Shown here in pieces: positions 37,023-57,915 of a stretch of DNA of 64,000 nt. Each line of letters opens with the position of its first letter. The first letter of the stretch is position 1. The translations under genes were made by a program, and so were the position numbers. The notes beneath the pieces were generated by a model, which made no database searches, was not told where the DNA came from, and worked only from the letters and a program-made list of their open reading frames with translations. Origin of the DNA: Candidatus Saccharibacteria bacterium (GTDB lineage: Bacteria > Patescibacteriota > Saccharimonadia > Saccharimonadales > Saccharimonadaceae); the NCBI GenBank assembly GCA_016432585.1, contig CP066696.1, positions 886,113-950,112 of the forward strand, in the 5' to 3' direction.

Positions 37023-37442
37023 ATGAAACTCACTCAAATCATCCAATCTAGTCTTCTCGGCGTTCTCGCTGCTTCTTTAGTGATAGTCTTGCTCGGTACA
37101 ACCACATTTGCTTTCGACGGAACGATGAGCGAAGGAGCTGAATCTGCCCGAGGTATCGACCAAGCCACAACCTTATTTGGTGCAGCCGGTATTTTTACAA
37201 CTATTAGCAACGTCATGCTTTTTCTCGTGGGCGCAATTAGCGTTATTATGATAATTATCGGTGGTCTCCGCTATGTTATATCTGGTGGCAACACCGGAAA
37301 TGTTGCTGCTGCCAAGAATACAATTCTCTACGCAATCGTAGGGCTCATCATCGCAATTATGGCGTACGCTATCATTAATTTTGTTATCGGCAGCTTTGTT
37401 CCTGGCGGAGCTGGTGGCGGTATGGGCGGCACAAACGTCTAG
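37023..37442 (+). CDS. T4SS pilin (VirB2/TrbC-like), copy 1
   Basis: 139 residues: a signal peptide (about 1-29, ending TTTFA-FDG), a small polar region, and two transmembrane helices (about 60-80 and 98-120) joined by GGLRYVISGGNTGNVAAAKNTILYAI. This hairpin pattern matches the CPR T4SS-pilin family. A Gly-rich C-terminus follows. GGAGAATGT is a good Shine-Dalgarno. It is most like the copy at 38986 (shared NTILYAIVG and NFVIGSF), and lies apart from the main array by a tRNA, comF and hsp20. Confidence 0.88.
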   Translation: MKLTQIIQSSLLGVLAASLVIVLLGTTTFAFDGTMSEGAESARGIDQATTLFGAAGIFTTISNVMLFLVGAISVIMIIIGGLRYVISGGNTGNVAAAKNTILYAIVGLIIAIMAYAIINFVIGSFVPGGAGGGMGGTNV

Positions 37443-37453
37443 TTAAAGTATCG

Positions 37454-37492
37454 CCAAGAAAAAAGACGTCCAAATGGACGTCTTTTTTCTTG
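37454..37492. terminator. Bidirectional terminator, CCAAGAAAAAAGAC type
   Basis: CCAAGAAAAAAGACGTCC-AAAT-GGACGTC then TTTTTTCTTGG. It closes the pilin gene and the tRNA-Ser(UGA), sharing the stem sequence of 35852-35893. Confidence 0.88.
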
Positions 37493-37580
37493 GCGGAGAG
37501 GGAGAGATTCGAACTCTCGGTACCATTGCTGGCACGACGGTTTTCAAGACCGTTCCCTTAAACCACTCGGGCACCTCTCC
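37491..37580 (-). tRNA. tRNA-Ser(UGA)
   Basis: 90 nt including CCA. The anticodon loop CTTGAAA gives UGA, reading UCA and UCG. It completes the serine set in this window. Confidence 0.97.
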
Positions 37581-37619
37581 GTAGAGGAACTGAAAACTAT
37601 TTTAACAGATAGGATGCGG

Positions 37620-38303
37620 TTAGTCGAGAGGTTGTTTTGCGATTACCGCCACCCAAATCTGGCGAGCGCCAGCCTGGCGCAGCACATTGGCCGCCGAGCG
37701 CAATGTTGCGCCTGTCGTTGTAATGTCATCAACAATAAGATATACGGCATCGGAACGGAGGGGATGGCTTAATGCAAAAGCGGCCTCTGCCTGTACTTGG
37801 CGCTGCTGACGTGAAGAGCCGCGCTGTGTTGTGCTGGTCGTTCGTACAAGAACTTTCTGTACCGCTAGTGACCGTTTTTGCGCAAAACACCTTGCCATCA
37901 AAAGTGCATGATCGTACCCGCGTGCCCGAACATGGGACGGTATTGTTGGAATTGGTACAACAATTGTCTGAGGGGGAAGGTCGTCGACACATTCATCGAG
38001 AAGAGTAGCGAGGGTTTTGTAGCCCGCTTTTGCATTCTCGAACTTATAGCAGTCAATGATTTCGCGCAAAACACCACTACGCTCTCCAACACACCACGCC
38101 TTTTGATATGGCAAAGTGCATAGTCTACAGGTGTTACGCGTGGTTGCCGCCGAACACTCTATACATTCATCAAACGATTCACTAGTGATGTCATATTTAC
38201 AATTGTCACATAAAAGTGACCCTATTTTACCGCATCCGCAACAGAGGTGTGGAGCTATGTATGATAAGAGGGTGTCAATCATTGTGTTTTTTACGTTTTG
38301 CAC
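37620..38303 (-). CDS. ComF-family phosphoribosyltransferase-like protein
   Basis: 227 residues. Cys-rich N-terminus with CCGCGKIGSLLCDNC, ECIEC and TCRLC pairs (zinc ribbons) then a PRTase domain with the PRPP-site VYLIVDDITTTGATL and VRARGYDHALLMA. ComF proteins help take up or process single-stranded DNA in competence; this organism would benefit because it lacks nucleotide synthesis genes here. The start may be GTG 38303 or ATG 38282; TATAAT lies just upstream of both. Confidence 0.93.
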   Translation of the reverse strand: MQNVKNTMIDTLLSYIAPHLCCGCGKIGSLLCDNCKYDITSESFDECIECSAATTRNTCRLCTLPYQKAWCVGERSGVLREIIDCYKFENAKAGYKTLATLLDECVDDLPPQTIVVPIPTIPSHVRARGYDHALLMARCFAQKRSLAVQKVLVRTTSTTQRGSSRQQRQVQAEAAFALSHPLRSDAVYLIVDDITTTGATLRSAANVLRQAGARQIWVAVIAKQPLD

Positions 38304-38389
38304 ATTCCTTGTGTTGATTATACTGTAGTTGTTGGTTATAATTGAAGAGACTATTTGTCAATAGAGCCTAGAGAAAAGTGGAGGATATC

Positions 38390-38866
38390 ATGGCCCGTAA
38401 ACAAAACGATGATCTACTGATCGAAGATGAACTTGCCGCTGCGTTTTTGAACGACGATGAGCTCACCCAACAACAAACAACAAGCCAGGCGCAAGCCCCG
38501 GCTGCCGATGATTCGGCATGGGAAGACAACGAAGATGACTTTCCGGGTCAGCTTGCCGTAGATGTCTACGAAACCGACGAGAAACTTATTGTCAAGGCCC
38601 GCACAGCAGGCGTTAACAAAGAGGATCTTGATGTGAGTATTAGCGATGGTATTTTAACTATCAGCGGTACACTTTCAAGCGGTGACGATACAGATGCGAC
38701 TAACTGGCACATTCAGGAATGTTATTGGGGTGAGTTCAGCCGTACGCTCGCGCTTCCAGTTGCCGTAAAAGAAGATGAAGTAGGGGCAGTCCTAAAGGAC
38801 GGCGTTCTTACGATCAGCTTCGGCAAAATCAAGCAAGAACAAGCAAAGAAAATCACTATTCAATAG
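38390..38866 (+). CDS. Small heat-shock protein Hsp20
   Basis: 158 residues. The alpha-crystallin domain (about 60-150) includes GQLAVDVYETDEKLIVKARTAGV, ISDGILTISGTL and a C-terminal LKDGVLTISFGK. The N-terminus is acidic. GGAGG is 5 nt before the ATG, and a start four codons upstream is rejected. As an ATP-independent holdase it should work beside GroEL. Two terminators follow. Confidence 0.95.
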   Translation: MARKQNDDLLIEDELAAAFLNDDELTQQQTTSQAQAPAADDSAWEDNEDDFPGQLAVDVYETDEKLIVKARTAGVNKEDLDVSISDGILTISGTLSSGDDTDATNWHIQECYWGEFSRTLALPVAVKEDEVGAVLKDGVLTISFGKIKQEQAKKITIQ

Positions 38867-38876
38867 AGACGATCTC

Positions 38877-38916
38877 GCAAATAAAATCACCTGGGTATCC
38901 GGGTGATTTTATTTGC
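38877..38916 (+). terminator. hsp20 terminator
   Basis: GCAAATAAAATCACC pairs with GGTGATTTTATTTGC over a 10-nt loop. Confidence 0.8.
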
Positions 38917-38937
38917 CGAGGCAGGGGAGTATGTACA

Positions 38938-38975
38938 AAAAAATAACGCCGTATTACGGCGTTATTTTTTTAAAA
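38938..38975. terminator. Bidirectional terminator of the pilin array
   Basis: AAAAAATAACGCCG-TATTA-CGGCGTTATTTTTT, A- and T-tracts on both sides, at the 3' end of the minus-strand pilin cluster. Confidence 0.9.
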
Positions 38976-38985
38976 AATCTACGAA

Positions 38986-39399
38986 CTAAGCGTCGGCTGC
39001 AAAGCTACCGATAACAAAGTTGACAAGTGCGTACGCGAGAATCGCGACAACAATACCTACGATTGCGTAGAGAATTGTATTTTTAGCGCTTGTAACAGCT
39101 CCGCTATCACCACCTGATACAACGTAGCGAATACCACCGATAATAAGCATGATGACCGAGATAGCACCGATGATAAAGAGAAGAACGTTGGTAATCGTCT
39201 TAAAGACACCATCGTCACCGAACAAATCAGTTTGCTGATCTTTACCCTTAGATGAGTTAGCGCCATCTTGCAAACCTTCGTCGAATGCCTGCGCGCTAGC
39301 CTCGATTGGCTGTAAAACTGGTGCTACCATGCTAATACCAAGCGCTAGTGCCGGTACGATAAGTAAGCTTTGGAGGCTTTTCTTAATTATATTCTTCAT
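38986..39399 (-). CDS. T4SS pilin, copy 2
   Basis: 137 residues: signal peptide (about 1-37, ends EASAQA), a linker containing SSKGKDQQTDLFGDDGVFKTI, then two helices around GGIRYVVSGGDSGAVTSAKNTILYAIVG. Nearest paralogue is copy 1 at 37023: both have a (K/R)G(K/I)DQ(Q/A)T(D/T)LFG motif. Last gene of the minus-strand array. It probably polymerises into the T4SS pilus or forms its base. Confidence 0.9.
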   Translation of the reverse strand: MKNIIKKSLQSLLIVPALALGISMVAPVLQPIEASAQAFDEGLQDGANSSKGKDQQTDLFGDDGVFKTITNVLLFIIGAISVIMLIIGGIRYVVSGGDSGAVTSAKNTILYAIVGIVVAILAYALVNFVIGSFAADA

Positions 39400-39472
39400 T
39401 ATTGTTCCTTTCTTAGGATTACTCTACCTTATTTTATAGCAGATACGATGGTTTTTGTTAAGTGTGAACCGA

Positions 39473-39844
39473 CTAAAATGCGCCAACCACAAAGTTAACG
39501 ATGGCGTACGCCATAATGGCGACAATAAGTCCAATGACAGCGTACAATATCGTATCCTTGGCACCCTTTATCGCACTACTATCACCGTTTGAGGTGGTGT
39601 AGCGAACGCCGCCGATAACAATCATAACCACCGCAATTGCACCAAGAATGTACAGCAGGATATTGACAACTGTTTGGATGCGACTACCGAGAGAGGTGGC
39701 GTTGCCACCCTCATTGCCGCCAACATCGTTGATACCCGTTGTAATGTCACCTGCGGCATCGGCTAGTACCGTGTAACTAGGCACGAAGGATACGATCCCA
39801 ATAAGGGCAACGACTGATAATAGGACTACTTTTATTTTATTCAC
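39473..39844 (-). CDS. T4SS pilin, copy 3
   Basis: 123 residues: signal peptide (about 1-30), Gly-rich linker, and two helices around GGVRYTTSNGDSSAIKGAKDTILYAV. The last 50 residues are almost identical to copy 4, and the DNA is nearly identical as well, showing recent duplication or gene conversion. The C-terminus NFVVGAF is short with no tail. Confidence 0.9.
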   Translation of the reverse strand: MNKIKVVLLSVVALIGIVSFVPSYTVLADAAGDITTGINDVGGNEGGNATSLGSRIQTVVNILLYILGAIAVVMIVIGGVRYTTSNGDSSAIKGAKDTILYAVIGLIVAIMAYAIVNFVVGAF

Positions 39845-40025
39845 TAAATTCTCCTTTTTTAAAATGCGCCAACCACAAAGTTAACGATAGCATACGACAT
39901 AATGGCAACGATCAATCCTACGACAGCGTAAAGAATTGTATCCTTGGCACCCTTTATCGCACTGCTATCACCGTTTGAGGTAGTGTAACGTATACCACCT
40001 ATAACGATCATAATCACCGCAATCA
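39473..40025. repeat. Direct repeat of pilin 3' ends
   Basis: About 165 bp at the 3' ends of copies 3 (39473-39640) and 4 (39859-40025) are highly similar, including runs such as AAAATGCGCCAACCACAAAG and CCTTGGCACCCTTTATCGCA. The signal-peptide halves differ. Confidence 0.8.
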
Positions 40026-40233
40026 TACCAAGCACGATAAGAAGGGTATTGATGATAATCTTTACCATACTTGAGGCATTATCGGTACCCTGAGCCTTAC
40101 AAACAGCCGTATCGGGATTATCGGCACATTGGTCGAAAACGTTTATCGCCATCGCACTCGGTGCAGGCAGGGCAACGGCACCAACCCCAGCGACCAGCGC
40201 TAGTGACATTATAATTTGTTTCCATTTTTTCAT
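39859..40233 (-). CDS. T4SS pilin, copy 4
   Basis: 124 residues from MKKWKQ at 40233, set by GGGAGG upstream; the longer ORF overlaps copy 5. Signal peptide (about 1-30, ending PSAMA), a short mature N-terminus with two Cys (DQCADNPDTAVCKAQ), then two helices around GGIRYTTSNGDSSAIKGAKDTI. The Cys pair may form a disulfide outside. Confidence 0.9.
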   Translation of the reverse strand: MKKWKQIIMSLALVAGVGAVALPAPSAMAINVFDQCADNPDTAVCKAQGTDNASSMVKIIINTLLIVLGMIAVIMIVIGGIRYTTSNGDSSAIKGAKDTILYAVVGLIVAIMSYAIVNFVVGAF

Positions 40234-40235
40234 GA

Positions 40236-40532
40236 TTAGAACCTCCCTAGAACAAACTGCGTTATAACAAATGCGCCTATTATGACAACTATACCAATAA
40301 TCGCTCCCAAAATCATATCCTTGGCGCGCTTTACCGAGCCGGCATCGCCGTTCGAGGTGGTATACATGTAGCCGGCCATAACAATAATAACTACGCACAC
40401 CATTCCGGCAACACCGTAAACCGTCGTCAGAAGACCAGCGATAGCTGCGTTCGCATCTGTAACCGGCTCGACACCGATTGATCCCGGGTCTATCTTATCG
40501 GACGCGGCAAAAAGAATACTTTGAAGACTCAT
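40236..40532 (-). CDS. T4SS pilin-like protein without signal peptide, copy 5
   Basis: 98 residues: the shortest member. It begins MSLQSILFAASDKIDPGSIGVEPVTD, a polar stretch in place of the signal peptide, followed by two helices around AGYMYTTSNGDAGSVKRAKDMILGAI and ending FVLGRF. The core motif (TTSNGD.G/S..KRAKD.IL) fits the family. It may be inserted without cleavage. It starts on the stop of copy 6 (1-nt overlap). Confidence 0.85.
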   Translation of the reverse strand: MSLQSILFAASDKIDPGSIGVEPVTDANAAIAGLLTTVYGVAGMVCVVIIVMAGYMYTTSNGDAGSVKRAKDMILGAIIGIVVIIGAFVITQFVLGRF

Positions 40533-40963
40533 TAGCTAATTGCTCCTGCGATAAGATTAACGATAGCAACCGAAAAGATAGAAAGAACAAGGCCAATAAC
40601 GGCGTCCATGATAATCTTTTTCGCTTTTGCAACCTCGCCCGGATCGCCAATTGCGGTCATATACTTGAATCCACCCCTTATGATGTATCCAACCGCTAGG
40701 TAGCCAACGATTTGCAGTGCCATTTCGATAACGTTAAGAACGATCGTCCATATAAATGTCGGCAGACCGCCGGCTTGTTGTGGGCTTTTAATATTACAGA
40801 CGCCATCGGTTAAGCCTCTATACCATGCAGGAAAGGTAAGTAGACGCTCACCACACGCCTCGGCGGCAAGTGTTGTTTGAGGCAAGGCGACGGCCATTGT
40901 GGCACCTCCTAGTGTTGTTGCGAATAAAAGTGCGGCAGTCCAGTTTCGTATTTTATTTAACAT
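40532..40963 (-). CDS. T4SS pilin, copy 6
   Basis: 143 residues with signal peptide (about 1-33, ending TTLAA) and two Cys in the mature N-terminus (EACGERLL and VCNIKSP). Two helices flank GGFKYMTAIGDPGEVAKAKKIIMDAVIGLVL. The most diverged core after copy 7. No extra catalytic motif. Confidence 0.88.
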   Translation of the reverse strand: MLNKIRNWTAALLFATTLGGATMAVALPQTTLAAEACGERLLTFPAWYRGLTDGVCNIKSPQQAGGLPTFIWTIVLNVIEMALQIVGYLAVGYIIRGGFKYMTAIGDPGEVAKAKKIIMDAVIGLVLSIFSVAIVNLIAGAIS

Positions 40964-40974
40964 ATAGTTTTCCT

Positions 40975-41400
40975 TTACTGAAATATTCCACCCGGAATGA
41001 GAAAGTTTAAGAGGAGGTACATAGAGGCGTACGCCACGATACCAATCGCAACATTCCTTATAACATCTTTGGCTTTTTTAGTTTGCTCGGCACTGTCAGA
41101 GGATGTCGTGTAAAGGATTGCGCCGTACGTTATACCGCCAACCGCCGCAATACCGATACCTGCCGTTAAAATGTTGAGGACCAGCAAAAGAATACCCCAT
41201 ACACCACTCTGTGTAGTGCCGGCATCTTTTCCACCCGTTTGGTCGCAAACAACCAGCGAGGTTTGCACGCCACCGCAACAATAAAGACCTTTGTCTGGCT
41301 GCGGTTGACATGCAGCCCCGACTGTTTGCGGGATACTTATAGCGATCGTACCCATAACTACTAACGCAAGGACAATAATTTTTTGTTTTATTCTATTCAT
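40975..41400 (-). CDS. T4SS pilin, copy 7
   Basis: 141 residues: signal peptide (about 1-29), mature N-terminus with four Cys (ACQPQPD, YCCGG, VVCDQ), then two helices around GGITYGAILYTTSSDSAEQTKKAKDVIRNVAIG. It is the first gene of the minus-strand array and is divergent from the VirB6-like gene at 41556. The Cys-rich head differs from all others, so it may be a tip or minor subunit. Confidence 0.88.
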   Translation of the reverse strand: MNRIKQKIIVLALVVMGTIAISIPQTVGAACQPQPDKGLYCCGGVQTSLVVCDQTGGKDAGTTQSGVWGILLLVLNILTAGIGIAAVGGITYGAILYTTSSDSAEQTKKAKDVIRNVAIGIVAYASMYLLLNFLIPGGIFQ

Positions 41401-41555
41401 ACCTGATTATAAGATACGATATAACTAAAGCGGAAGCAAGTAGTGATACTCAAAATATATATCGTGCACGCATAATTTCCATATATACGCATACTATACA
41501 TAATGGTGTTTTTTACATTGACTTTTCGAGTATAAGATGGTACCATAACAGAGAT
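41401..41555. promoter_or_regulatory. Divergent promoter region of the T4SS locus
   Basis: On the plus strand TTGACT (41518-41523), 17 bp, TACCAT (41541-41546) is 9 nt from the ATG at 41556 (leaderless type). The pilin array runs from the other side. The region is AT-rich and contains no ORF. Confidence 0.65.
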
Positions 41556-44204
41556 ATGTGGGATCTGCGAATTGCAACTCCATTCGGTAGAATATCGAAA
41601 TGGAGTATGATGATTTTTGCCGCAGCGCTTCTTGCGGCTTCTTTCGCTATAGCATTCCTTGCTAGCACGCCTGTTCATGCGGCCGATGGACAATGGAACG
41701 GTGACGCGCTTCAATACGGACAAAACCAATATACGTTCGTAGGAACGGCAGCCGCCGGTGATAGTCGCGGCATCCCAGAAGGCTCAAAGATCTACGGCTA
41801 TGTTGAACCGGACACTTCTGGGGCAAGCAATCCCACAAAAAAAGCTCATCTTATTTACTTTGCACCAGGCGTAGACCCGGGTCAGGCAACCGCCGCCACC
41901 TACACTGCTTACGATCTTAATGGCGCCACGTATAGCAATCCGACAGGAAAGACTTCTATAACTATGGAGCCCCGAGCCGCCGCTAGCGAAGGAACGACCT
42001 CTTGTGACAGCTCCTTCACCTTTGGTGTTGGGTGGATAATTTGTCCGATTACAAACTTTTTTGCCAGCGCTATGGACTGGCTATTTAACGTTCTTGCGGG
42101 ATTCCTGGCGGTTCGACCTGTCCAGTCTAGCCAAGAAAACGCACTATACCGCGCTTGGTCGGTTATGCGTAACTTTGCAAACGTTGCGTTTGTTATTGGC
42201 TTCCTTATTATTATTTACTCGCAGATCACAAATATCGGTCTTTCTAATTACGATATTAAAAAAATGTTACCGCGCCTTATTATTGCAGCTGTGCTTGTTA
42301 ATATATCGTACTGGATTTGTTCAATCGCAATCGACATTTCTAATATTATCGGCTATTCGATTCAAGATATATTTATCTCTATGCGTAATAATCTTGTCGG
42401 TGGAGAAGGGAATAACTGGGATCTGGTTAGCTGGAAAAGTATCGGCGGATTTATTCTTTCGGGCGGTACCATTGCGGCCGCGACGGGAATTGGTGGGTTT
42501 GCGCTACTAGCCAGTGCCGGAACGGTAGGTGGTGCGCTGTACATGCTTTTGCCAATCCTCCTCGGAGTCCTTATCGCCGTGTTAGTAGCACTCATGGTCA
42601 TGGCGGCGCGCCAAGCAATTATTACTATATTAGTAATAATTTCGCCGCTGGCATTCGTGGCATACCTTTTGCCGAATACCGAGAAGTACTTTGAGAAGTG
42701 GAAAAGTCTTGGTATGACCATGCTTGTTATGTTCCCGATGTTCTCGATCGTATTTGGTGGATCGCAACTTGCCGGAATTGCAATTATTCAAAATGCGGAT
42801 TCTATTAATACTGTCATTCTAGGTATGGCAGTGCAGGTTGCCCCTGTTGCAATTACGCCACTGCTATTGAAACTCAGCGGATCGCTCCTTGCTCGAATTG
42901 GCGGTATTATTAATAACCCAAGCCGCGGACTTATCGACCGCACGCGAAACTTTGCAAACGAGCGCCGCGACCAGCGAAAGGCAAAAGCATGGGCAACGCC
43001 GCTTAATAGGCGACGCGACGCCTTTGCTCGTGCCTCGCGTGGTATAGACAACAAACGCCGTGAGCGCGAGGGCTGGCAGAAGGCCAACGAGGCCATGGTG
43101 GATGCAAACTGGGCTAACAGCCAAGTAAACTCTGATATCCAGCAGCGTGCCCTGCAAGCAGCGAGCGTTAAAGATACCGGTGACAATCTAGCTCAGCGCA
43201 GGTTCGAGGCATCTAAGCTGACAAACGCCGCTATGCAGGATCTTGATCTAAATGCCCGTGCCGCCAAACTGGACCTTGATGTGTCTAAGGCACGAGTTGA
43301 AGCAAACTGGGAGGAACTTAAAGCGGGCGATGGTCGAAATATCGTTCAGCCGGCAGGCCTTGCGGGCAGTGCACTTGCCACTTATATCGCTAGTCGGGTC
43401 GATCCGATTAGTCAGAATGCTATTAATGCCGGTATCGAGGCGCGACGCGAGCAATCTGCAGAACATGTACAAAAGCGTGTATTCTCTGAAGCATTGGAAA
43501 ACAACATCGCTCTGCAACAAGCAGCTGGTGGTATAGATGCCAACGGTTCGCAGCGAGCATTGGCATACGCCCTTAAGGAACGACATAGTGCGCGTCGTGA
43601 AGCGGTTGATAACGCAAACTCTATTATTGAACATAGCAACGTTGACGACAGGGGTACCCTCGAACTTGCAGAGGGACGAGCCTTCGGCAACGTTCAAATT
43701 ACGGATGATATTCAAGAAGCCGCTATTATTAAGGTTGCCTCCGCAGGTAACGTGAATAACATCAACCACTTGATGGAGAACCTAGATATTTCCCCAAGCG
43801 GCAACGAAAACCACCGTATCGCTTTTGTTGAAGCACTTAAAAAGAACAGCGCAGCGCGACCTAAGTACGTTGGGTTTGCTCGTATGAACGCTATTACACA
43901 GGGTGTCGCCGACGGCGGTGTAGAGGGTCTTGATAACATGATTAAGTCTACCGTTGAAGCTCTTAAGTTCTCTCCTGAAGTATTGGTGTCGCAAGACCAA
44001 GACGCGCTTAAACGTATGGCTGAAGCTATTAGTCGCAATAAGGCGCAGTACGATCCCGTCGCACTTTCTGACCTTAAGAAGCGAATTGATACGGCATTTA
44101 AAGACGAGCGTCTCAATGTTCGATTGGGTGAACGAAGGCCTCATCTTGAGACTATTATGAGTACACTTAGCGACGTGCCTTTCCCTCCAGACCCAGCCCC
44201 TTAG
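41556..44204 (+). CDS. VirB6/TrbL-like channel protein 1
   Basis: 882 residues. Signal or first helix (about 17-37), an extracellular domain (about 40-165) with a Cys pair (SCDSS, WIICP), then six to eight transmembrane helices between about 200 and 450, including VMRNFANVAFVIGFLIIIYSQI and LIIAAVLVNISYWICSIAIDIS. The last 430 residues are hydrophilic, Ala/Arg/Glu-rich and probably cytoplasmic, beginning INNPSRGLIDRTRNFANERR. Paralogue at 45611 shares the membrane core. Inferred T4SS inner channel subunit. Confidence 0.8.
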   Translation: MWDLRIATPFGRISKWSMMIFAAALLAASFAIAFLASTPVHAADGQWNGDALQYGQNQYTFVGTAAAGDSRGIPEGSKIYGYVEPDTSGASNPTKKAHLIYFAPGVDPGQATAATYTAYDLNGATYSNPTGKTSITMEPRAAASEGTTSCDSSFTFGVGWIICPITNFFASAMDWLFNVLAGFLAVRPVQSSQENALYRAWSVMRNFANVAFVIGFLIIIYSQITNIGLSNYDIKKMLPRLIIAAVLVNISYWICSIAIDISNIIGYSIQDIFISMRNNLVGGEGNNWDLVSWKSIGGFILSGGTIAAATGIGGFALLASAGTVGGALYMLLPILLGVLIAVLVALMVMAARQAIITILVIISPLAFVAYLLPNTEKYFEKWKSLGMTMLVMFPMFSIVFGGSQLAGIAIIQNADSINTVILGMAVQVAPVAITPLLLKLSGSLLARIGGIINNPSRGLIDRTRNFANERRDQRKAKAWATPLNRRRDAFARASRGIDNKRREREGWQKANEAMVDANWANSQVNSDIQQRALQAASVKDTGDNLAQRRFEASKLTNAAMQDLDLNARAAKLDLDVSKARVEANWEELKAGDGRNIVQPAGLAGSALATYIASRVDPISQNAINAGIEARREQSAEHVQKRVFSEALENNIALQQAAGGIDANGSQRALAYALKERHSARREAVDNANSIIEHSNVDDRGTLELAEGRAFGNVQITDDIQEAAIIKVASAGNVNNINHLMENLDISPSGNENHRIAFVEALKKNSAARPKYVGFARMNAITQGVADGGVEGLDNMIKSTVEALKFSPEVLVSQDQDALKRMAEAISRNKAQYDPVALSDLKKRIDTAFKDERLNVRLGERRPHLETIMSTLSDVPFPPDPAP

Positions 44205-44422: not shown

Positions 44423-45532
44423 ATGAGTTTAGAACAACGACACCGAACACCAAATTCAGGCGAAACGCCAGAGGGGGAGGAGCGTGCGTTGAACAGCTCG
44501 ACTACGACCGAAACCTACCGAATCCCCGGCAGCGCCGACCAAGAGCAATTCGAGGAAAGCACCTACGATCCTAACAGGCAACGTGGTAAACGAAGGGGCC
44601 TTCGTCTTATTGGCGCAAGCGCGGCATTGGCAGTAATTCTTGCAGGTGGTGGCTATGCACTTACCCGCGGCGGCGACAATGTAGAAGCCAAAACCCCACC
44701 GGTAGCGACCGCGCCTGCAGATCCAGGCGAGACAGCCCCATCCGCTCCAGGCGGCGCTGAGGTTCTTAATAATCTCACCTTGGCTAATTTTCCGTTTGAA
44801 ATTGACGGAAAGACATATGAAGGATTCGACGCATTCAAAGAAGCGTTCGCTATTGATGCAGGCGACTACACGGAATATAACGTTACCGATGCACACCCAG
44901 AGGTGGTAGAAGACGGGAAACAGGCCACTGCCGAGGTTGTTAGCCTCATCAATAAATGGCTGAATTACGATATCACAACCATTGAAGGCGTCGCACCCGA
45001 AGTGATGGACAAATACGAATATACTCGACCAGATGGTTCTTCCTATGCTGGAGAATCTGCTCTTAAGCGAGAGTTTGTCGATACGGCGTTCGAACAGCTT
45101 CTCTTTGAGAAAACCGACCTTAAGGGCGTTACATACCCGACCTCGTTCATCGACGACATCAAGACTATCGCAGCAAAGGTCCAATCACTAAGAGAATTCA
45201 CCAAAGACGAAGCAAATCCTTACAAAGGTGAGTTTGTTATCGTTGATCCACCATCTATGTCTATTGGCTACAAACACCTCGATCGTCCAGGAATTGCCGT
45301 AGGCACTACCGTCACCGTTCAATACCGCGATAATGCCAGCGCAAATAGCGTCGGCGAAGACTCACGCTACTCTGCACCTATCGGCCTTGAGAATCCCTAC
45401 ATATGGGAAATGGGGCTCGATAGTTCTGGTACTGTGCAGGCTGGAGAATATAGCCCTCGTGACCGCGCAGGCGAATTTGGACCATATTGGCGAATCGCAG
45501 GATTCGACAACAGTCCAAAGAAAACGATGTAA
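44423..45532 (+). CDS. Single-pass T4SS-locus protein, VirB8-like topology
   Basis: 369 residues. Acidic/polar cytoplasmic N-terminus (1-55), a basic stop (RGKRRG), one transmembrane helix (about 60-78), a Pro-rich linker (80-110) and an extracellular domain of about 260 residues. I do not recognise the domain. Its position between the two VirB6-like genes and its topology suggest a scaffold or adhesin of the secretion system; this is inference. Confidence 0.7.
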   Translation: MSLEQRHRTPNSGETPEGEERALNSSTTTETYRIPGSADQEQFEESTYDPNRQRGKRRGLRLIGASAALAVILAGGGYALTRGGDNVEAKTPPVATAPADPGETAPSAPGGAEVLNNLTLANFPFEIDGKTYEGFDAFKEAFAIDAGDYTEYNVTDAHPEVVEDGKQATAEVVSLINKWLNYDITTIEGVAPEVMDKYEYTRPDGSSYAGESALKREFVDTAFEQLLFEKTDLKGVTYPTSFIDDIKTIAAKVQSLREFTKDEANPYKGEFVIVDPPSMSIGYKHLDRPGIAVGTTVTVQYRDNASANSVGEDSRYSAPIGLENPYIWEMGLDSSGTVQAGEYSPRDRAGEFGPYWRIAGFDNSPKKTM

Positions 45533-45545
45533 CCAGGCATTCACA

Positions 45546-45578: not shown

Positions 45579-45610
45579 GTCACTTTGCGACATAATTTAG
45601 CGTAAGTACT

Positions 45611-49839: not shown

Positions 49840-49841
49840 AA

Positions 49842-51731
49842 ATGGCTAAGAAAAAACTCGACCCGATTGATATTGCCGCCGAACAGCGCGCACGCGAACA
49901 AGCAGAAGTTGAGCAAGCTTTTCTAAAAGGCATGACAACGCTTCGCGACCTTATTGCGCCAAGCAGCCTTGAAATCCACGCCAGCCATTTTCGCTTGGGA
50001 ACAAAATACGGGCGTACGCTATATATCTACGGCTACCCACGCCAAATCTACACAGGCTGGCTAAGTTCGCTTATCAATATCGATGAAGTACTTGATATTA
50101 GTATGTTTATCTACCCGGTCGAAAGCCAGGTTGTCCTAAATAATCTTCGCAAAAAGGTGACGCAACTTGAGGCCTCGATGTCGATCAACAGCGAAAAGGG
50201 GCGCACTCGCGACCCTGGTCTTGAGGCGGCCCTGCAAGACGCCGAAGAACTTCGTGACCAATTGCAGGTTGGATCTGAGCGATTCTTCCGTTACGGCTTG
50301 TACGTAACACTTTACGCCGATAGCCTCGATGAGCTTAGTTTTGTTCAACACAAAATCGAAACACTCTTTGGTCAGCAACTTATCTTTAGCAAGGTAGCAA
50401 GCAGCCAGCAAGAGCAGGGGCTTAACAGTACGATCCCACAGATGAGCGACCAATTACAGATTCGCCGCAACATGAACACCGGTGCGATCAGCACAAGCTT
50501 TCCATTTACAAGCGCCGACCTTACTCAAGAAAAGGGCGTTTTGTACGGTATTAACATGCACAACAACGGCCTGGTTATTTTTGACAGGTTCAGCCTGGAA
50601 AACGCAAACATGGTGGTATTTGCAAAGTCTGGTGCTGGTAAGTCGTTTACCGTTAAGCTCGAAGCGCTTCGCAGTATGATGGTTGGCTCGGATGTGCTTA
50701 TTATCGACCCAGAAAACGAGTACCAAAAACTTTCCGATGCCGTAGGCGGAAGCTATATTCGACTCAGTCTAAACGCCGACACGCGAATTAACCCATTCGA
50801 CCTCCCCAGAGTTATCGATAGAGAAGAGGCAGATGACGCACTGCGCGCAAACCTCGTAACACTCCATGGTTTGTTCCGCCTCATGCTTGGTGGTAGCCAA
50901 GCAACGGCAGCGGGACAGATGATGTCGGCGCTAACGCCGGCCGAAGAAGCCGACCTTGACCAAGGCTTGATTGATACGTATGCTCGCGCGGGTATCACGA
51001 GTGACCCACTCACGCACAATTCGCTTCCACCAACAATTAGTGATCTCTACGATACGCTTCTCCACATGGGTGGCACAGGGCCAGCGCTAGCACAGCGTCT
51101 TCGTAAATACACCACTGGTACGTTTGCCGGTATCTTTTCGCAGCAATCGAATATCGATATCAATAACCACATGGTCGTCTTTAATATTCGCGACCTCGAA
51201 GACGAACTTCGCCCGGTCGCTATGTATATCGTGCTTTCCCACATTTGGAACATTACTCGTAGCGAACAGCGCAAGCGCATGTTGATCGTTGATGAGGCAT
51301 GGCAGCTTATGAAGTACGACGACTCCGCAAACTTCTTGTTTTCACTTGCGAAACGCGCGCGTAAATATTATCTGGGGCTCACAACAATTACCCAGGATGT
51401 CGAAGACTTCATGGGAAGTAAAATGGGCCGCGCGATCGTGGCTAACTCATCTATGCAGTTACTCCTTAAGCAATCATCGAGTGCCGTCGACGTACTTTCG
51501 GATGTCTTTAAACTTACCGAGGAAGAACGCAAACGTCTTGCCAACTTCCCAGTAGGGCAGGGTTTGTTCTTTGCGGGACAAAACCACGTTCATATACAGA
51601 TTGTGGCAAGTCAAACCGAGACAGGGCTTATTTCGACCAACCCAATGTCACAGCCTCAAATGCAACCCCAGCAACCAGCAGAACAACCTATGACCGGCGG
51701 CTACACCAATCCCGGGGATAGTAACGTATAA
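49842..51731 (+). CDS. VirB4-family T4SS ATPase
   Basis: 629 residues. N-terminal VirB4 domain (about 30-200), then a FtsK/HerA-like ATPase with Walker A FAKSGAGKSFT (about 262), DPENEYQKL, Walker B RMLIVDEAWQLM, and the TTITQDVEDFM segment. It powers assembly or transport. It has the residues required for activity. It is the core marker of the T4SS; no VirD4 coupling protein or relaxase is in the window. Confidence 0.96.
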   Translation: MAKKKLDPIDIAAEQRAREQAEVEQAFLKGMTTLRDLIAPSSLEIHASHFRLGTKYGRTLYIYGYPRQIYTGWLSSLINIDEVLDISMFIYPVESQVVLNNLRKKVTQLEASMSINSEKGRTRDPGLEAALQDAEELRDQLQVGSERFFRYGLYVTLYADSLDELSFVQHKIETLFGQQLIFSKVASSQQEQGLNSTIPQMSDQLQIRRNMNTGAISTSFPFTSADLTQEKGVLYGINMHNNGLVIFDRFSLENANMVVFAKSGAGKSFTVKLEALRSMMVGSDVLIIDPENEYQKLSDAVGGSYIRLSLNADTRINPFDLPRVIDREEADDALRANLVTLHGLFRLMLGGSQATAAGQMMSALTPAEEADLDQGLIDTYARAGITSDPLTHNSLPPTISDLYDTLLHMGGTGPALAQRLRKYTTGTFAGIFSQQSNIDINNHMVVFNIRDLEDELRPVAMYIVLSHIWNITRSEQRKRMLIVDEAWQLMKYDDSANFLFSLAKRARKYYLGLTTITQDVEDFMGSKMGRAIVANSSMQLLLKQSSSAVDVLSDVFKLTEEERKRLANFPVGQGLFFAGQNHVHIQIVASQTETGLISTNPMSQPQMQPQQPAEQPMTGGYTNPGDSNV

Positions 51732-51743
51732 TAAAGGTAATTT

Positions 51744-54700
51744 ATGGCACTAAGTTATAAAGATGACCAAAAGCAAGATGAGCGGCTCGATCCGTACTCT
51801 GATAATGCCAAGGATCTTTACAAACAAGAGCAAGATGCCTATGATCAACAGTTCGAAGATATTGCCGGCAATCATGATAAAACTGCCGACGATTCTCAGG
51901 AAAATGACAACATTGCCAAAACTCAAAATATAGACAAGGCCAGAGAGCGCGAAGAAGCTAGCTGGAAAAGTTTCTATCGTGACGAGAGCGGGCAAAAACA
52001 AAAGCTAACCTTTAAAAGCTTTATGAAAAAGAAGGGGCCGATGGGGCTCATTATTACACTACTTCTAGGCGGTGGTGGTGGTTTTTCGCTTTTGTTCTCG
52101 CCGGGGATGTTGATTGTTGACCTTAAAGAAAAGATGAACGACAAGTTTAACGACCAACTTGCCGCCATGGATGTTCGTACAACTGCACTTATTAAGAAAA
52201 AATTTGGCAAAACAACCTCTGGCCTCTGTGGGCAAAAACTCAGTATTCGCTGTAAGTACAATAGTATGTCGAAGCGGCAGTTCAGCAAGCTAGAAAAAGC
52301 GATCGTTGCCGAAGGTGGAAAAATCAACACCGATGGGAAAACCCTTATAAAAGGGCGGGCGAAAATTACAAGCATTGAATTCGGCGGCAAGGTGATTGGA
52401 GCGGCTGATTTTGCCAGTGAAATACGGACAAACCCAGCTTTTAGAAGCGCCATGATGAAGGGGTATAATCCCAAGCTAGCAGGTTTTGCCGATTCCTTAT
52501 TCGGAAAGCTATCGGCCAAGTTAGGTATAAATAAACAGAAAAATATCGGGGCTGATGAGGGCAAAGATAACGTAAATGCCGAACCTGACGCCGAAGAAAA
52601 GACCGATGAACAGAAGATGAAAGAGGAGCTGGTGGATGCCGCCAGCGGAGAGGCGGCAGCAGAAGCTAAGGCTAATGCTATCAAGACAGAGGAGGAATGT
52701 GACGGCGGAGACGGATGTACGGATGGTAAGCGCACCGTATATAAGGACGAAGACGGTAAAGCAATCACCGAGGCCGAATATAACGAACGAGTCAACGCAA
52801 CGTCAGAACTTAGCTCCGAAATCGAGGCACGCCGCTCGCTAGCTGATGTAGGCAAAAAGGCTACCAAAGCCACGCTTAAAGGCGCACTTACTTCAACTGC
52901 ACTAGGCCTTGGCGCCGTTGATACGGCATGTACCGGGTACTTATTAATACGCACCGTTGGGTATGCCGCAAAGTACTTAGGTATGTTAATGCTCCTTCGT
53001 TATGCACATGTCTTTATGAATACGGCCGATTCTATCAAGGCGGGTGACGCCACTCCGAAACAAGTTGAATTTGTCGGAAATATTCTTACGTCACAGAACG
53101 CCATTGGACAAAGCGCTACCGATTCGTACGGCTATAAATACGCAGCATATGGAGACGTCATGACGATGCCTCGAAGCGAAGATGTTGGCCAGAATACAGG
53201 TGGAGCTACGTCCTTAAGCGAAGAAGAACAGAAACAAGTGCTTATTAACGACGAGACCACGAAGTACATCAATGGCCAGCTTGTTTCCGATAATATTCTT
53301 GCAGCCGTTATTGGATTCGTTGAGCAAGGCGCGACATCTATCGACGTCGCCGATGAGACATGTAAATTCGTAAAAAGCGGCTGGGGACAAACCATTCTAT
53401 TCGGAACCGCGATTGTTGGTGCGGTAGTTGCATTCTTTAGTGGTGGAGCAAGTCTTGGATGGGGTGTACTTGCGCAAGCCGGTGTTGGTATTGCGATTAG
53501 CGTCGCCCTTGCCATGCTAACGCCAAAACTTGTTGACATGGCCGCCGGGCGACTTGTAGACGGAAATGAAAACGGTAACCAAGCAGGTAATGCAATCACC
53601 TCGGGCATGGGCGGGTACAACGCTCAAACCTCACAAGGTCGCGGACTTCCAGCTCAGAAAAAAGAAGATGCTGTCGCATATGCGCAACTCACCAAGGAAA
53701 CCATGGCTCAATACGATGCAGTCGACCGACTAAATGCAAACCCGCTAGATGCCTCGAATCCACACACCTTCATGGGGACATTCGTATCGAACCTCATACC
53801 TTACGCATCGAAAATATCGAGCAGTCTAACAAGTAATATCTCGGCAATGACCCAATTCACAACTTCTTCATTCGCAAGTCTACTACCAAGTGCAAGCGCG
53901 GCCGAGGAAGCGGCACAGTACAATGTATGCGAAGACCGCGACTATAAGCAGTTCGATCTTGCTGTCGATCCATTTTGTAATGTTCGCTACGGCCTCACAA
54001 GCGACGTGCTCGCTATCGATCCGGAAACTGTACTCGACTACATGCTCGAGCACGACTATGTCGACGAAGAAACCGGCCAACCAAAAGAAGACGACAACGA
54101 TTATGCTGAATACATAAAGCACTGTATGGAGCGCGCTGCATCGATTGGTGGATTCGTATCCGAAGATGATATCAATAAGGGTGAAGAATGTGTTCAAAAT
54201 GAGCACACGGGTGACGAAGAGAAGAAATACGACATGTTCCGCCTCTTCTATATCGACCAAAGTATCGATGAAGGTATGGAAAACGGCTACGCAAACTCTG
54301 GCGCAACAGCCGAAAGCGACAATGGTCAGGTTGTATCGCCGGTTGCACCAGGCCACACAATAACAAGCGGTTATGGCCCACGCGGTTCGGTTCCTGGCGC
54401 ATCGAACGGCTCGTCGTGGCACGCGGCAATCGATATGGTCAGTACTCCCACGGATGTTTACGCCGCTATGGCGGGCACAGTTGTATCCGTCGGAGGAGGA
54501 GCCGTTAACGTTGTAACAATAAAGCACGCCGATGGTCTTAAAACCCGCTACCTTCACATGTGGCCAAAAGATACACTCGTTAAGGCAGGCGACACGGTAA
54601 CGGCTGGGCAAAAAATCGGAAAAATCGGCTGTGCAGGACAGGCCGAAGGGTATTGTGGCGGGCCGCATCTCGACTTTAATATATGGGTAGATGAAGTGAA

Positions 54701-54836
54701 GGATCGTGTTAAATATAGTAAATACAAGGTAGCACCAGAGGCTGCAGGCGGCAGTTCGGGTAATGCTATAAACCCCGCAAACTTCTTAAAGGATAACGGC
54801 GTGGCCGGATATGACGAGGCTGTAAATGATAATTAA
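51744..54836 (+). CDS. Large membrane protein with C-terminal M23-like peptidase domain
   Basis: 1030 residues. Acidic cytoplasmic N-terminus (1-95), first helix near LIITLLLGGGGGFSLLF, an extracellular region, further helices near 390-430 and 545-595, then a large extracellular part. The C-terminal M23 fold (about 865-985) shows SWHAAIDM and YLHMW but the HxH motif reads PHLDFNI, so the second His is Asp. This may keep weak Zn binding or be inactive. Probable role: open the cell wall or act as periplasm-spanning scaffold. Confidence 0.85.
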   Translation: MALSYKDDQKQDERLDPYSDNAKDLYKQEQDAYDQQFEDIAGNHDKTADDSQENDNIAKTQNIDKAREREEASWKSFYRDESGQKQKLTFKSFMKKKGPMGLIITLLLGGGGGFSLLFSPGMLIVDLKEKMNDKFNDQLAAMDVRTTALIKKKFGKTTSGLCGQKLSIRCKYNSMSKRQFSKLEKAIVAEGGKINTDGKTLIKGRAKITSIEFGGKVIGAADFASEIRTNPAFRSAMMKGYNPKLAGFADSLFGKLSAKLGINKQKNIGADEGKDNVNAEPDAEEKTDEQKMKEELVDAASGEAAAEAKANAIKTEEECDGGDGCTDGKRTVYKDEDGKAITEAEYNERVNATSELSSEIEARRSLADVGKKATKATLKGALTSTALGLGAVDTACTGYLLIRTVGYAAKYLGMLMLLRYAHVFMNTADSIKAGDATPKQVEFVGNILTSQNAIGQSATDSYGYKYAAYGDVMTMPRSEDVGQNTGGATSLSEEEQKQVLINDETTKYINGQLVSDNILAAVIGFVEQGATSIDVADETCKFVKSGWGQTILFGTAIVGAVVAFFSGGASLGWGVLAQAGVGIAISVALAMLTPKLVDMAAGRLVDGNENGNQAGNAITSGMGGYNAQTSQGRGLPAQKKEDAVAYAQLTKETMAQYDAVDRLNANPLDASNPHTFMGTFVSNLIPYASKISSSLTSNISAMTQFTTSSFASLLPSASAAEEAAQYNVCEDRDYKQFDLAVDPFCNVRYGLTSDVLAIDPETVLDYMLEHDYVDEETGQPKEDDNDYAEYIKHCMERAASIGGFVSEDDINKGEECVQNEHTGDEEKKYDMFRLFYIDQSIDEGMENGYANSGATAESDNGQVVSPVAPGHTITSGYGPRGSVPGASNGSSWHAAIDMVSTPTDVYAAMAGTVVSVGGGAVNVVTIKHADGLKTRYLHMWPKDTLVKAGDTVTAGQKIGKIGCAGQAEGYCGGPHLDFNIWVDEVKDRVKYSKYKVAPEAAGGSSGNAINPANFLKDNGVAGYDEAVNDN

Positions 54837-56118
54837 ACGACCTAAAAAACTATTTAAATCTACTGTTGCTGTATTTTTGGCTCTCGTTATTTCGATTGGA
54901 TTTGCCGCCGATACAACGCGCGTTCTCGCTATTCCCGACCAAGATTTCTACAGCGGTAACGATATTCTTTATTACGACCCAGATAGCGGATTGTGTTCAA
55001 CCGGCGACAGCACGCTAACCGGTAGCAATGTAAAAGAAAAGGTTTGGAACTGGCTAAAGAGCAAAGGGCTTTCGTCGGAACAGGCGGCGGGAGTTATGGG
55101 TAACATGGTAGCCGAGTCGGGTATCGTGCCCACCCGACACCAGGGTACTGGCGATGTCTGGAATAGCTCTTATACGGGCAACGCCTGGGGCCTAGTACAG
55201 TGGGATGGCGGTAGGCGATATAGCGCACCAAAAGGCGGAGTTTTAGGTAAACTAAAGGAGAAAAAGCCGAATCTCGTTAAGTACGCCGAGCTTCAGTACG
55301 ATACTGTCCGCAACCCCGACGTCAAGATTCCACCGGTTGACTTGGATGCCTTAACGCTATTTGAGCTCGAGTATCTTTACGAGGAAAGCACGCACCGTCC
55401 TGTTACAGCCCGTGGATACGGAGAAGCGGCAAACGAATGGGAGACATTGAAACTGCAAAAAACCGTCGCCGATGCGACAGTGTTTTGGCACAATAACTTT
55501 GAGGTTTCAGCCGATTCTGCCGAACAGGTTCTTAATGGTCGCGGCGGTCATTCGCAAAAAATTTTCGACGAATTTTCGGGTAAACCCGGCGCAACGAGCA
55601 ATCAGGCGAATTGTTCGGCTGCAACCGGCGACCTGTCGCAACTGACGCTCTCGTATGCCTGGCCCGAATACCACCCAAAACCCTATGTGCAAAAGAAGCC
55701 GGAATACGAGACTGCCGTTCGAAAAGCAGACGATGAGAATATATACACCGGAGATCCTTGCCACGGTGGTGGCGTCGATTGCGGTGCATTCGTGACGCTA
55801 CTGGTAGTAAATAGTGGCTTCGACCCAGCCTACAATCATGGTGGAAAGAGAAGCGAAGGGGCGGGTAATACTTCGGTTCAGGCGGACTGGGCGAGTAAAA
55901 ACTGGGAAACAATAGGCACCGGCTCAACAATTAATGTTGCAGATCTTCGCGCCGGCGATGTCGCAATCAGCGATGGACACACATTTATATGGGTAGGCGA
56001 GATCGAAGGCTTCCAGACTAAAATCGCTTCCGCCTCACAGTGCGGGCGCGCACCAATGGCAGGAACCGAATCTCCCACCTCTAGCGACCCTACGTTAAAA
56101 TGGTATCGAAAGAAGTAA
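54826..56118 (+). CDS. Bifunctional peptidoglycan hydrolase (lysozyme-like plus CHAP/NlpC-like)
   Basis: 430 residues with an N-terminal signal (about 1-33). Domain 1 (about 65-220) matches phage-tail-lysozyme: WNWLKSKGLSSEQAAGVMGNMVAESG with the catalytic Glu, and GNAWGLVQWD. Domain 2 (about 280-425) has the Cys in GGVDCGAFVT and the His in ISDGHTFIWVG. This is the two-domain VirB1-like plan of Gram-positive T4SS. It overlaps the upstream gene by 11 nt. Confidence 0.9.
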   Translation: MIIKRPKKLFKSTVAVFLALVISIGFAADTTRVLAIPDQDFYSGNDILYYDPDSGLCSTGDSTLTGSNVKEKVWNWLKSKGLSSEQAAGVMGNMVAESGIVPTRHQGTGDVWNSSYTGNAWGLVQWDGGRRYSAPKGGVLGKLKEKKPNLVKYAELQYDTVRNPDVKIPPVDLDALTLFELEYLYEESTHRPVTARGYGEAANEWETLKLQKTVADATVFWHNNFEVSADSAEQVLNGRGGHSQKIFDEFSGKPGATSNQANCSAATGDLSQLTLSYAWPEYHPKPYVQKKPEYETAVRKADDENIYTGDPCHGGGVDCGAFVTLLVVNSGFDPAYNHGGKRSEGAGNTSVQADWASKNWETIGTGSTINVADLRAGDVAISDGHTFIWVGEIEGFQTKIASASQCGRAPMAGTESPTSSDPTLKWYRKK

Positions 56119-56128
56119 GGGGATAAAA

Positions 56129-56764
56129 ATGATACAAGATTTTATAAAAAACCATTTCGCCGCCTTTATAGCAATAATCCTGCTCATTGCTGGACTACTG
56201 GGGATGGCCGCATTTATCGTCGCCACAAGGCCGAATGCACAACCAGTTGTCGTGAATGTTATACCAAGCGATGCAAAAGTAATGGCTAATGGCACCGAGA
56301 TTAAAAAAGGAACCGCTTATCTAGAGCCTGGCGTCTATTCGATCGAAGTATCTCGCGGTGGGTTTAAGACTGAAAAAACGACAGTACTTATTGGCGATCC
56401 AAATACCGCCTCGATCGACGTCGCATTAACACCCGTATCAGATAGCGCAATCGAGTGGAAGAAGAGCCATGATAGCCTCTACTACGATTACGAGGGGAGA
56501 GCTGGCGAAAGAGCTTCTCAAGAGGGAATAGCGTTCACCGCTCTTAATCCAATAACCTCAAAATTGCCGTTCGAAAACCTTCTTTACACCATAGGATATC
56601 GCGCCGATCCTTCAGACGATTCGGGTAATTCAATCATCATAGAAATCGATGCGTCGAGAGGCTACCGAAACGCAGCAATAAACGAAATCCGCAACCTCGG
56701 CTACGATCCGACGACATTCAAAATCAATTTTAGAGATTATGAAAGCCCATTCGACAATGAGTAA
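56129..56764 (+). CDS. PEGA-domain single-pass protein of the T4SS operon
   Basis: 211 residues. One transmembrane helix (about 10-32), a PEGA-like beta domain (about 40-105: VVNVIPSDAKVMANGTEIKKG, LEPGVYSIEVSRGGFKTEK) and an extracellular C-terminal alpha/beta domain (IGYRADPSDDSGNSIIIEID). PEGA domains bind cell-surface structures. AAGGGG gives the Shine-Dalgarno. Its stop overlaps the next start by 4-8 nt. Confidence 0.8.
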   Translation: MIQDFIKNHFAAFIAIILLIAGLLGMAAFIVATRPNAQPVVVNVIPSDAKVMANGTEIKKGTAYLEPGVYSIEVSRGGFKTEKTTVLIGDPNTASIDVALTPVSDSAIEWKKSHDSLYYDYEGRAGERASQEGIAFTALNPITSKLPFENLLYTIGYRADPSDDSGNSIIIEIDASRGYRNAAINEIRNLGYDPTTFKINFRDYESPFDNE

Positions 56765-57377
56765 AAAACAACTTATCACTATTATCACCATTCTCGTTAT
56801 TGCTATTATTGGCCTTGCGGTGGTGTTCTATTTAAACACGTTCAAAGTTGTTCGCTTTGATATAAGGCACGACGACATAACTATCGACGTTTATTCTGGC
56901 AGTACAAATAATAATCAGAAGATCGGATCGCTCGATGCAAGCGGTGAGCTTAAGCTACAGGCGGGGGACTACACTGTCGTCCCATCTGGCGACAAATATA
57001 ACAATGCGCCAATTAGCTTTACGGTTAAAAATACTGACACCACAATCACGATCAACCCCGAATACTCACAGGCATACCGCGACGCAATCTTAAAAGCCGA
57101 GATGGACGCTATCAACAAAGTAATCAGCGATACTTATCCATCTGTCATAAATGGCTTCGATATTAACCCGGGCTACGTTTACGAGAACGCTACATGGTAC
57201 GCCACCACCTTGAAGCAAGATATCGGCCACCCAACAGAAGTAAGTGACGTCTATCGCACCGTTCTAAAAAAAGAAGATGGGAAATGGGTGATAAAAGCAA
57301 AGCCAGCACTCGTACTCAGCTCGAAAGACTACCCTCAGATTCCTGTCGACATTTTAAGGGATATAAACAGAAAGTAG
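56757..57377 (+). CDS. Single-pass T4SS-operon protein, VirB8-like topology (2)
   Basis: 206 residues from ATG 56757, which overlaps the upstream stop. One helix (about 5-26), a PEGA-like beta region (FDIRHDDITIDVYSG, LQAGDYTVVPSG), then a C-terminal domain (about 110-206) with KKEDGKWVIKAKPALVLS that resembles NTF2-like folds. Function not recognised beyond membership in the operon. Confidence 0.75.
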   Translation: MSKKQLITIITILVIAIIGLAVVFYLNTFKVVRFDIRHDDITIDVYSGSTNNNQKIGSLDASGELKLQAGDYTVVPSGDKYNNAPISFTVKNTDTTITINPEYSQAYRDAILKAEMDAINKVISDTYPSVINGFDINPGYVYENATWYATTLKQDIGHPTEVSDVYRTVLKKEDGKWVIKAKPALVLSSKDYPQIPVDILRDINRK

Positions 57378-57381
57378 ATCC

Positions 57382-57915
57382 ATGATAGACGAAGCAAAAC
57401 GTAAACAACTTGTCATCGCCGCCTCTGTTTTCCTCGGTGTCGTCATATTGGCTTTTATCGGGTTTCTTATCTTTTTTAGGCAAGATACCGCAAGCGATCT
57501 GCCACCCGTCGAGCCAGCGACATCCGACACTCAGTCAACCGAACAAGAGAATGCCGCCAGTACAGACTTATCCAGTGAAGAGACTAAAAAATCAGTTTCG
57601 TATAAAAACGGCACTACTTTTAACGGCTTCGACGAACTAAACCGCTATGCGGTGACAAGCCTGCGTAAAAGCGCTATAGAATATGTGCTATCGAATTACG
57701 CAACGACAACGAAAGCGGATATATACACCTTCACCCCGGGATCAATCAAAGAAACGCCCGATGGTGAACGAACTTTTCTAACGTTTAACGTTACCGATAA
57801 TAAAGACGCAACATACAAGGTCGAACTTTCGTACACATTTGCAGCCGATGCCTATGTACGCGTGTTCGACAAAGACAACAAGATCGTCGCCACGTCACCA
57901 TTTGATACTGATTAA
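57382..57915 (+). CDS. Single-pass T4SS-operon protein, VirB8-like topology (3)
   Basis: 177 residues. N-terminal helix (about 10-30), Glu/Ser/Thr-rich linker (35-70), then a domain ending RTFLTFNVTDNKDATYKVELSYTFAADAYVRVFD. The FNGFDELNRYAV segment recalls YEGFDAFKEAFA of the 44423 protein, suggesting distant relation. It is the last gene of the T4SS operon. Confidence 0.75.
   Translation: MIDEAKRKQLVIAASVFLGVVILAFIGFLIFFRQDTASDLPPVEPATSDTQSTEQENAASTDLSSEETKKSVSYKNGTTFNGFDELNRYAVTSLRKSAIEYVLSNYATTTKADIYTFTPGSIKETPDGERTFLTFNVTDNKDATYKVELSYTFAADAYVRVFDKDNKIVATSPFDTD

Follow-up and report, generated by a model that had tools for sequence, protein, structure and literature searches.

What does a type IV secretion system (T4SS) do when no relaxase or VirD4 is found within its locus and it occupies one fixed place on a Saccharibacteria chromosome? 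The question is raised by the window analysed here, a stretch of 64,000 nucleotides (C1:886113-950112) of a single-contig genome of 952,504 bp; the chromosome is probably closed, because at least 100 bases are repeated between both contig ends, and genome-wide statements rest on searches. The locus is the already known, chromosomally fixed T4SS of Patescibacteria/Saccharibacteria, located beside recF-dnaN-dnaA (PMC12102498, PMC10633639). We consider it reasonably probable that it constitutes a vertically inherited T4SS of the MPF_FATA type which moves macromolecules at the contact with the host. A cultivated Saccharibacterium needs its T4SS for growth on the host. New here are (i) a candidate for VirB8, (ii) the positional orthology of the pilins, (iii) the reading of two hydrolases as a split PrgK, and (iv) the finding that ComEC is not detected despite retention of the T4SS. 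Every element in the gene list of an initial annotation, made from the DNA letters, is present according to the open reading frame (ORF) list, profile scans and single-pass prediction. The motor and channel genes are:

41556..44204, + strand: VirB6-like polytopic membrane protein a (paralogy, topology)
45611..47929, + strand: VirB6-like polytopic membrane protein b (paralogy, topology)
47984..48979, + strand: PrgI (VirB3-like), whose hydrophilic tail is long (PF12666)
49012..49839, + strand: TrsD-like protein, a relative of the VirB4 N-terminal domain (NF041427)
49842..51731, + strand: VirB4 ATPase of the CD1110 family, with the same NCBIfam name as pCF10 VirB4 (NF045971)

VirB4, which is present in a single copy in the genome, scores 369 bits with NF045971 (cut-off 325), has an intact Walker A motif (GAGKS) and a VDE motif, and is 25% identical to VirB4 of pCF10 (E 5e-43). 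PrgI matches PF12666 with an E-value of 1.9e-12, and both matches bear out the names given initially, while the gene then called 'TraC-like' is indeed present and is better named TrsD-like by its match to NF041427 (E 2.8e-5, under the cut-off of that model). The two VirB6-like paralogues are likewise present and are 44% identical to each other; of 17 members of their family, 5 match TrbL/VirB6 of Pfam (PF04610), at E 7.7e-5 at best, and the copies in the window do not in the single-protein scan. The VirB6-like proteins yielded no match to PrgH of pCF10, and comparison of the VirB6 profile with PDB sequences returned nothing relevant. An additional divergent VirB4 (37-39% identical) occurs in the sampled genomes G004, G008, G023 and G057, which suggests a second T4SS locus in these genomes that is absent from the genome of the window.

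Gene order was compared among 80 loci recovered with VirB4, each count being given relative to the loci in which it was testable; the loci nearest in VirB4 are mostly from metagenome-assembled genomes labelled Saccharibacteria or Saccharimonadia. The recurring order, with variation, is divergent pilin array, virB6, the position of the single-pass protein SP1, virB6, prgI, trsD, virB4, M23, lysozyme/CHAP, one to three further single-pass proteins, recF and dnaN. The gene trsD is found in 72 of 73 loci, prgI in 68 of 68, the M23 gene in 64 of 65, the lysozyme gene in 60 of 62 and divergent pilins in 36 of 52. The comparison of gene order in relatives, a check which had been proposed along with the initial annotation, thus reveals conservation across up to 80 loci, with recF or dnaN adjoining in 54 of 60, and since the chromosomal place is the same across loci, vertical inheritance is indicated rather than a mobile element. 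Features of the Patescibacteria-type T4SS found here are a VirB4 of the MPF_FATA kind, PrgI beside VirB4, a TrsD homologue (sub-cut-off), a VirB2-like pilin array and a position near dnaA/dnaN, the latter being reported for part of the phylum. With the T4SS of S. epibionticum (SEML1_0006-0019) and N. lyticus TM7x, the locus shares the VirB4, TrsD, PrgI, VirB6, lysozyme and peptidase genes, the VirB2-like pilin array, the vicinity of dnaA, the lack of a relaxase and a type IV coupling protein (T4CP) encoded elsewhere (PMC12102498, PMC10633639). It differs in the number of pilins, which is seven here and reportedly six in S. epibionticum, in the pair of VirB6 paralogues and the proposed VirB8 candidate, and in that ComEC was not found.

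The second check, a genome-wide search for relaxases, gave zero matches to PF03432, PF03389 and PF01076; a control genome scored above the cut-off for the first two, no control did so for PF01076, which is the weakest of these negatives, and MOBC, MOBM and MOBF lay outside the search. The initial statement that VirD4 is missing holds for the window only; in the genome, the sole match to PF02534 is a 930-residue VirD4-like protein (C1:689267-692059), located ~230 kb from the locus, with an N-terminal hydrophobic segment and matches to TrwB_AAD_bind and TraG-D_C. By ORF inspection, its neighbours read as dprA, topA, ftsQ, murG and ftsW. Such distant T4CP genes occur in most Patescibacteria, and the gene is not essential in S. 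epibionticum (PMC12102498).

The pilins provide a second line of observation. All seven genes noted initially exceed the curated cut-off of PF18895, and in a whole-genome scan they are the only matches, with no eighth:

37008..37442, + strand: pilin 1, apart from the array; other genomes have orthologues at this place, too, beyond comF
38986..39399, - strand: pilin 2, array position 6 counted from the virB6 side
39473..39844, - strand: pilin 3, recent-duplicate partner of pilin 4
39859..40233, - strand: pilin 4, start MKKWKQ, the listed ORF being longer upstream
40236..40532, - strand: pilin 5
40532..40963, - strand: pilin 6, array position 2
40975..41400, - strand: pilin 7, array position 1; slightly below the cut-off as a single protein, above it in the whole-genome scan

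In a tree of 176 pilins, array position agrees with that of the nearest relative from another genome in 132 of 171 cases, compared with a mean of 35 and a maximum of 59 in 500 shuffles of the positions within loci. Array positions 1 and 2 are almost exclusive (37/38 and 32/37), and just 15 of the 176 pilins have their nearest relative within their own locus. The tree is built on 120 columns of short proteins, support values were not considered, and a distance cut was the only means of removing near-identical genomes. Pilins 3 and 4 (56% identical) are the one pair in the window that looks like a recent duplication. Because the pilins are positional orthologues, the set is best regarded as ancient and ordered and not as a recent expansion; calling the pilin and hydrolase set 'expanded', as had been done, is hence misleading, all the more as the two hydrolases resemble a PrgK divided between genes. 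Arrays of this kind have been likened to antigenic variation or host adaptation, and Gram-positive T4SS classes lack pilins (PMC12102498). The ordered orthology argues against an interchangeable or antigenically varied array, and the roles of single pilins become testable.

Two side observations concern the same array. The 'secreted effector array' of TM7x may be the pilin array (window 38986-41400), and the Sec-secreted array of TM7x has been equated with VirB2 pilins (PMC12102498). At L034:936-4736, two related ORFs of 777 and 816 bases, whose family is unknown, are located upstream of virB6, where the pilin array is usual.

The hydrolases and the order of the core genes invite comparison with the conjugative plasmid pCF10 of Enterococcus faecalis. 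The genes in question are:

51744..54836, + strand: membrane protein with a C-terminal M23/LytM domain (PF01551), the terminal HxH motif being HxD here
54826..56118, + strand: lysozyme (Phage_lysozyme2, PF18013) and CHAP-like protein, the lysozyme part resembling the middle region of PrgK

In pCF10, a PrgI family protein is followed by VirB4, a tail-tip-lysozyme protein (PrgK) and a small protein (PrgL). The core order PrgI-VirB4-PrgK, a VirB6 homologue located upstream, and a VirB4 of the CD1110 family are common to both systems, and so are LytM, muramidase and CHAP domains, which reside in one protein (PrgK) there and in two proteins here. PrgK is documented to carry all three domains (PMC12857230). 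The two genes of the window are adjacent and overlap. In a single comparison, a match with an E-value of 5e-6 links the lysozyme part to the middle region of PrgK, and the pair looks like a split PrgK (VirB1); since BLASTP gave no match between the M23 protein and PrgK, this reading is one of domain content and order only. The membrane/M23 protein proposed initially is corroborated by its PF01551 match. For the 'lysozyme+CHAP' protein, the first half of the name is secured by PF18013, while the second depends on Cys and His motifs, kept in part of the homologues, as the Pfam scan returned no CHAP match. The lysozyme Glu is conserved in 57 of 64 homologues. The terminal M23 motif, searched by regular expression, reads HxH in 32 of 81 homologues and AxD, YxH or none in the rest, and with catalytic residues thus mixed among homologues, M23 activity cannot be claimed.

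All four single-pass proteins (SP1 to SP4) listed initially are present, and the first of them, which sits between the two VirB6 genes, is the candidate for VirB8:

44423..45532, + strand: SP1, single-pass with a Pro-rich linker and an NTF2-like C-domain model (topology, AlphaFold2 model)

In most loci this position is occupied by divergent single-pass or lipobox-bearing proteins, and a Pfam scan of 44 of them gave no consensus family, with one weak match to ARC6-like_IMS (E 0.031). Profiles of SP1, SP3 and SP4 found nothing relevant among PDB sequences. The AlphaFold2 model of residues 95-369, computed with 11 relatives (predicted local distance difference test, pLDDT, 62.8; predicted template modelling score, pTM, 0.65), exhibits a helix-helix-helix-sheet topology; the C-domain subset was partly picked by eye on shared motifs, so that the underlying alignment is itself not independent of expectation. 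The top Foldseek matches are an IcmL-like T4SS protein and DotI (E 0.06 to 0.1), and VIA-align superimposes the model onto DotI (3wz4; Z-score 7.3, root-mean-square deviation (rmsd) 3.6, 137 aligned), TraM of R64 (3wz3; Z-score 7.1, rmsd 3.5, 135 aligned) and CagV (6iqt; Z-score 7.0, rmsd 4.0, 132 aligned). Judged from this model, an NTF2-like fold of the C-domain is likely, and a VirB8 role for SP1 is mildly favoured. Several points speak against the assignment: the model is of low confidence, the Foldseek E-value is never below 0.001, Z-scores below 8 can reflect a common arrangement, the VirB8-family entries lead generic NTF2-like folds (Z ~6 to 6.9) slightly and are less than one Z unit from several of them, and PrgL of pCF10 has no match to the SP1, SP3 or SP4 profiles. 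An iterated-profile family of full-length SP1 was dropped as evidence, most of its matches comprising only the membrane anchor and the Pro/Thr-rich linker. The literature disagrees on this component, since Quinonero-Coronel et al. reported very few VirB8 proteins in Patescibacteria and cited none on structural grounds in S. epibionticum (PMC12102498), while a TM7x gene was labelled virB8 by BLASTP (PMC12592800) and a review includes VirB8-like components in its list (PMC12857230). The candidate moves the parts list of the channel nearer to completion.

From the observed gene content and synteny, the homology of VirB4 and PrgI, the pilin orthology and the lack of matches to three relaxase families, we infer an assembly, including SP1 as VirB8 and a direction of transport, in which the motor and channel of the inner membrane would consist of PrgI, the two VirB6-like proteins, TrsD and VirB4, SP1 would serve as a VirB8-like scaffold across the cell wall, the M23 and lysozyme/CHAP proteins might act as a split PrgK (VirB1) opening the peptidoglycan, and the ordered set of distinct VirB2-like pilins would build a contact filament, with transfer of macromolecules taking place at the host contact site. 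In S. epibionticum, transposon sequencing (Tn-seq) showed the orthologous locus, pilins included, to be required for growth on the host, and in this locus, likewise, neither a coupling protein nor a relaxase could be recognised (PMC10633639). In TM7x, transcripts of the T4SS and of putative effector genes are higher when the host is first encountered (PMC10768705). Both protein export and import of host macromolecules have been proposed (PMC10633639, PMC11665869, PMC12102498). We rank protein delivery to the host first, with about an even chance, followed by nucleic-acid import, adhesion only and conjugation. Weighing against such a delivery machine are the absence of a known substrate, the lack of a direct family match for either VirB6 copy of the window in a single-protein Pfam scan, and the fact that missing ComEC together with a retained T4SS fits import equally well as export.

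Nucleic-acid import, that is, the uptake of DNA or nucleotides from the host via the T4SS as proposed for Patescibacteria (PMC12102498, PMC11665869), is the best of the alternatives, possible and yet clearly less probable than delivery. It draws on ComEC, for which neither PF03772 nor the ComEC protein of a relative used as query (at E 1) gave a match here, whereas a match exists in 53 of the 61 family genomes. In the sampled genomes with the nearest VirB4 (G004, G008, G023 and G036; 92-96% identical), VirB4 is kept and no ComEC match exceeds the cut-off (G036 has a sub-cut-off match only). DprA is kept in the genome of the window, which would suit import, but gave no match in G008, G023 and G036, so that import for recombination appears not to be needed by the clade; retention of the T4SS is hence independent of competence, VirB4 staying where ComEC and, in three genomes, DprA are unmatched. 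Archaeal Ced is a known importer; however, VirB4 matches CedB just as a general ATPase relative, and family scans turned up no nuclease in the operon. The initial annotation had read the locus as a contact or DNA-uptake machine and not a conjugative one; the latter part stands, and ComF, its hint of DNA import, turns out to be weak evidence, with comF-hsp20 representing conserved synteny (comF in 18 of 52 loci), ComEC not found, and comEC, comF and dprA not required on the host in the S. epibionticum Tn-seq (PMC10633639). A T4SS that takes the place of ComEC would fit the pattern equally well. It is tempting, if rather improbable, that in a clade which lost ComEC the T4SS became the sole route for host nucleic acids, with a pilus of several distinct pilins, each conserved in position, and a VirB8-like protein that evolves fast. 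Whether the T4SS takes part in DNA uptake could be tested naturally on a clade in which ComEC is not detected.

A pilus for adhesion or contact devoid of transport would accommodate the seven pilins and the further single-pass surface proteins, but we deem it unlikely: the ATPase motifs of VirB4 are intact and, together with the VirB6-like channel proteins and the pair of wall hydrolases, point to a channel, and type IV pili could already serve for attachment (four PilB/PilT-like matches). A conjugative element or its decayed remnant, which the resemblance of VirB4 and core order to pCF10 and the distant VirD4-like protein might suggest, is highly improbable, because neither a match to the three relaxase families searched nor a coupling protein on the same element nor a variable integration site was found, the locus keeps one chromosomal place across the class, the VirD4-like gene sits among topA, ftsQ, murG and ftsW, and an orthologous locus is needed on the host (PMC10633639). 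This agrees with the initial view, which set the locus apart from ordinary integrative conjugative elements. In pCF10, a relaxase, VirD4 and the adhesin PrgB lie alongside the system, whereas no relaxase or VirD4 was found in this locus.

Beyond the channel genes and their delivery role proposed above, the locus and its surroundings comprise:

37620..38303, - strand: ComF-type phosphoribosyltransferase, a conserved neighbour, probably outside the T4SS
38378..38866, + strand: Hsp20, a conserved neighbour
41401..41555, no strand: divergent intergenic spacer of 155 bp between pilin array and channel operon
56129..56764, + strand: SP2, single-pass with a PEGA domain, probable paralogue of SP3 (Pfam, hhalign)
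56739..57377, + strand: SP3, single-pass, with a transthyretin/PEGA-like domain and a C-terminal alpha-beta domain (predicted structure)
57382..57915, + strand: SP4, single-pass, with a short extracellular domain (topology)
60428..62570, - strand: recF and dnaN, conserved right-hand neighbours, with dnaA next by inspection

SP2 and SP3 are probably paralogues, as suggested by their sequence profiles (hhalign probability 96%). The predicted structure of SP3 (pLDDT 92) consists of a membrane helix, the transthyretin/PEGA-like domain (best Z-score 8.4, rmsd 2.5, 77 aligned) and the C-terminal alpha-beta domain. SP3 was also considered as VirB8 and set aside, since the transthyretin-like domain took all matches of the fold search, so that the C-terminal domain was not reached. 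Promoter-like matches in the divergent spacer do not exceed chance frequency. At the left end of the T4SS, partly outside and partly inside it, three genes for tRNA-Ser (cga, gct, tga) and one for tRNA-Arg lie within 3 kb (window 34581-37580). Two genes located between SP4 and recF (window 58023-59657 and 59819-60337) have relatives in 0 of the 80 loci, and a lineage-specific insertion is suggested because positions 58001-60000 are 57% GC, compared with ~48% nearby.

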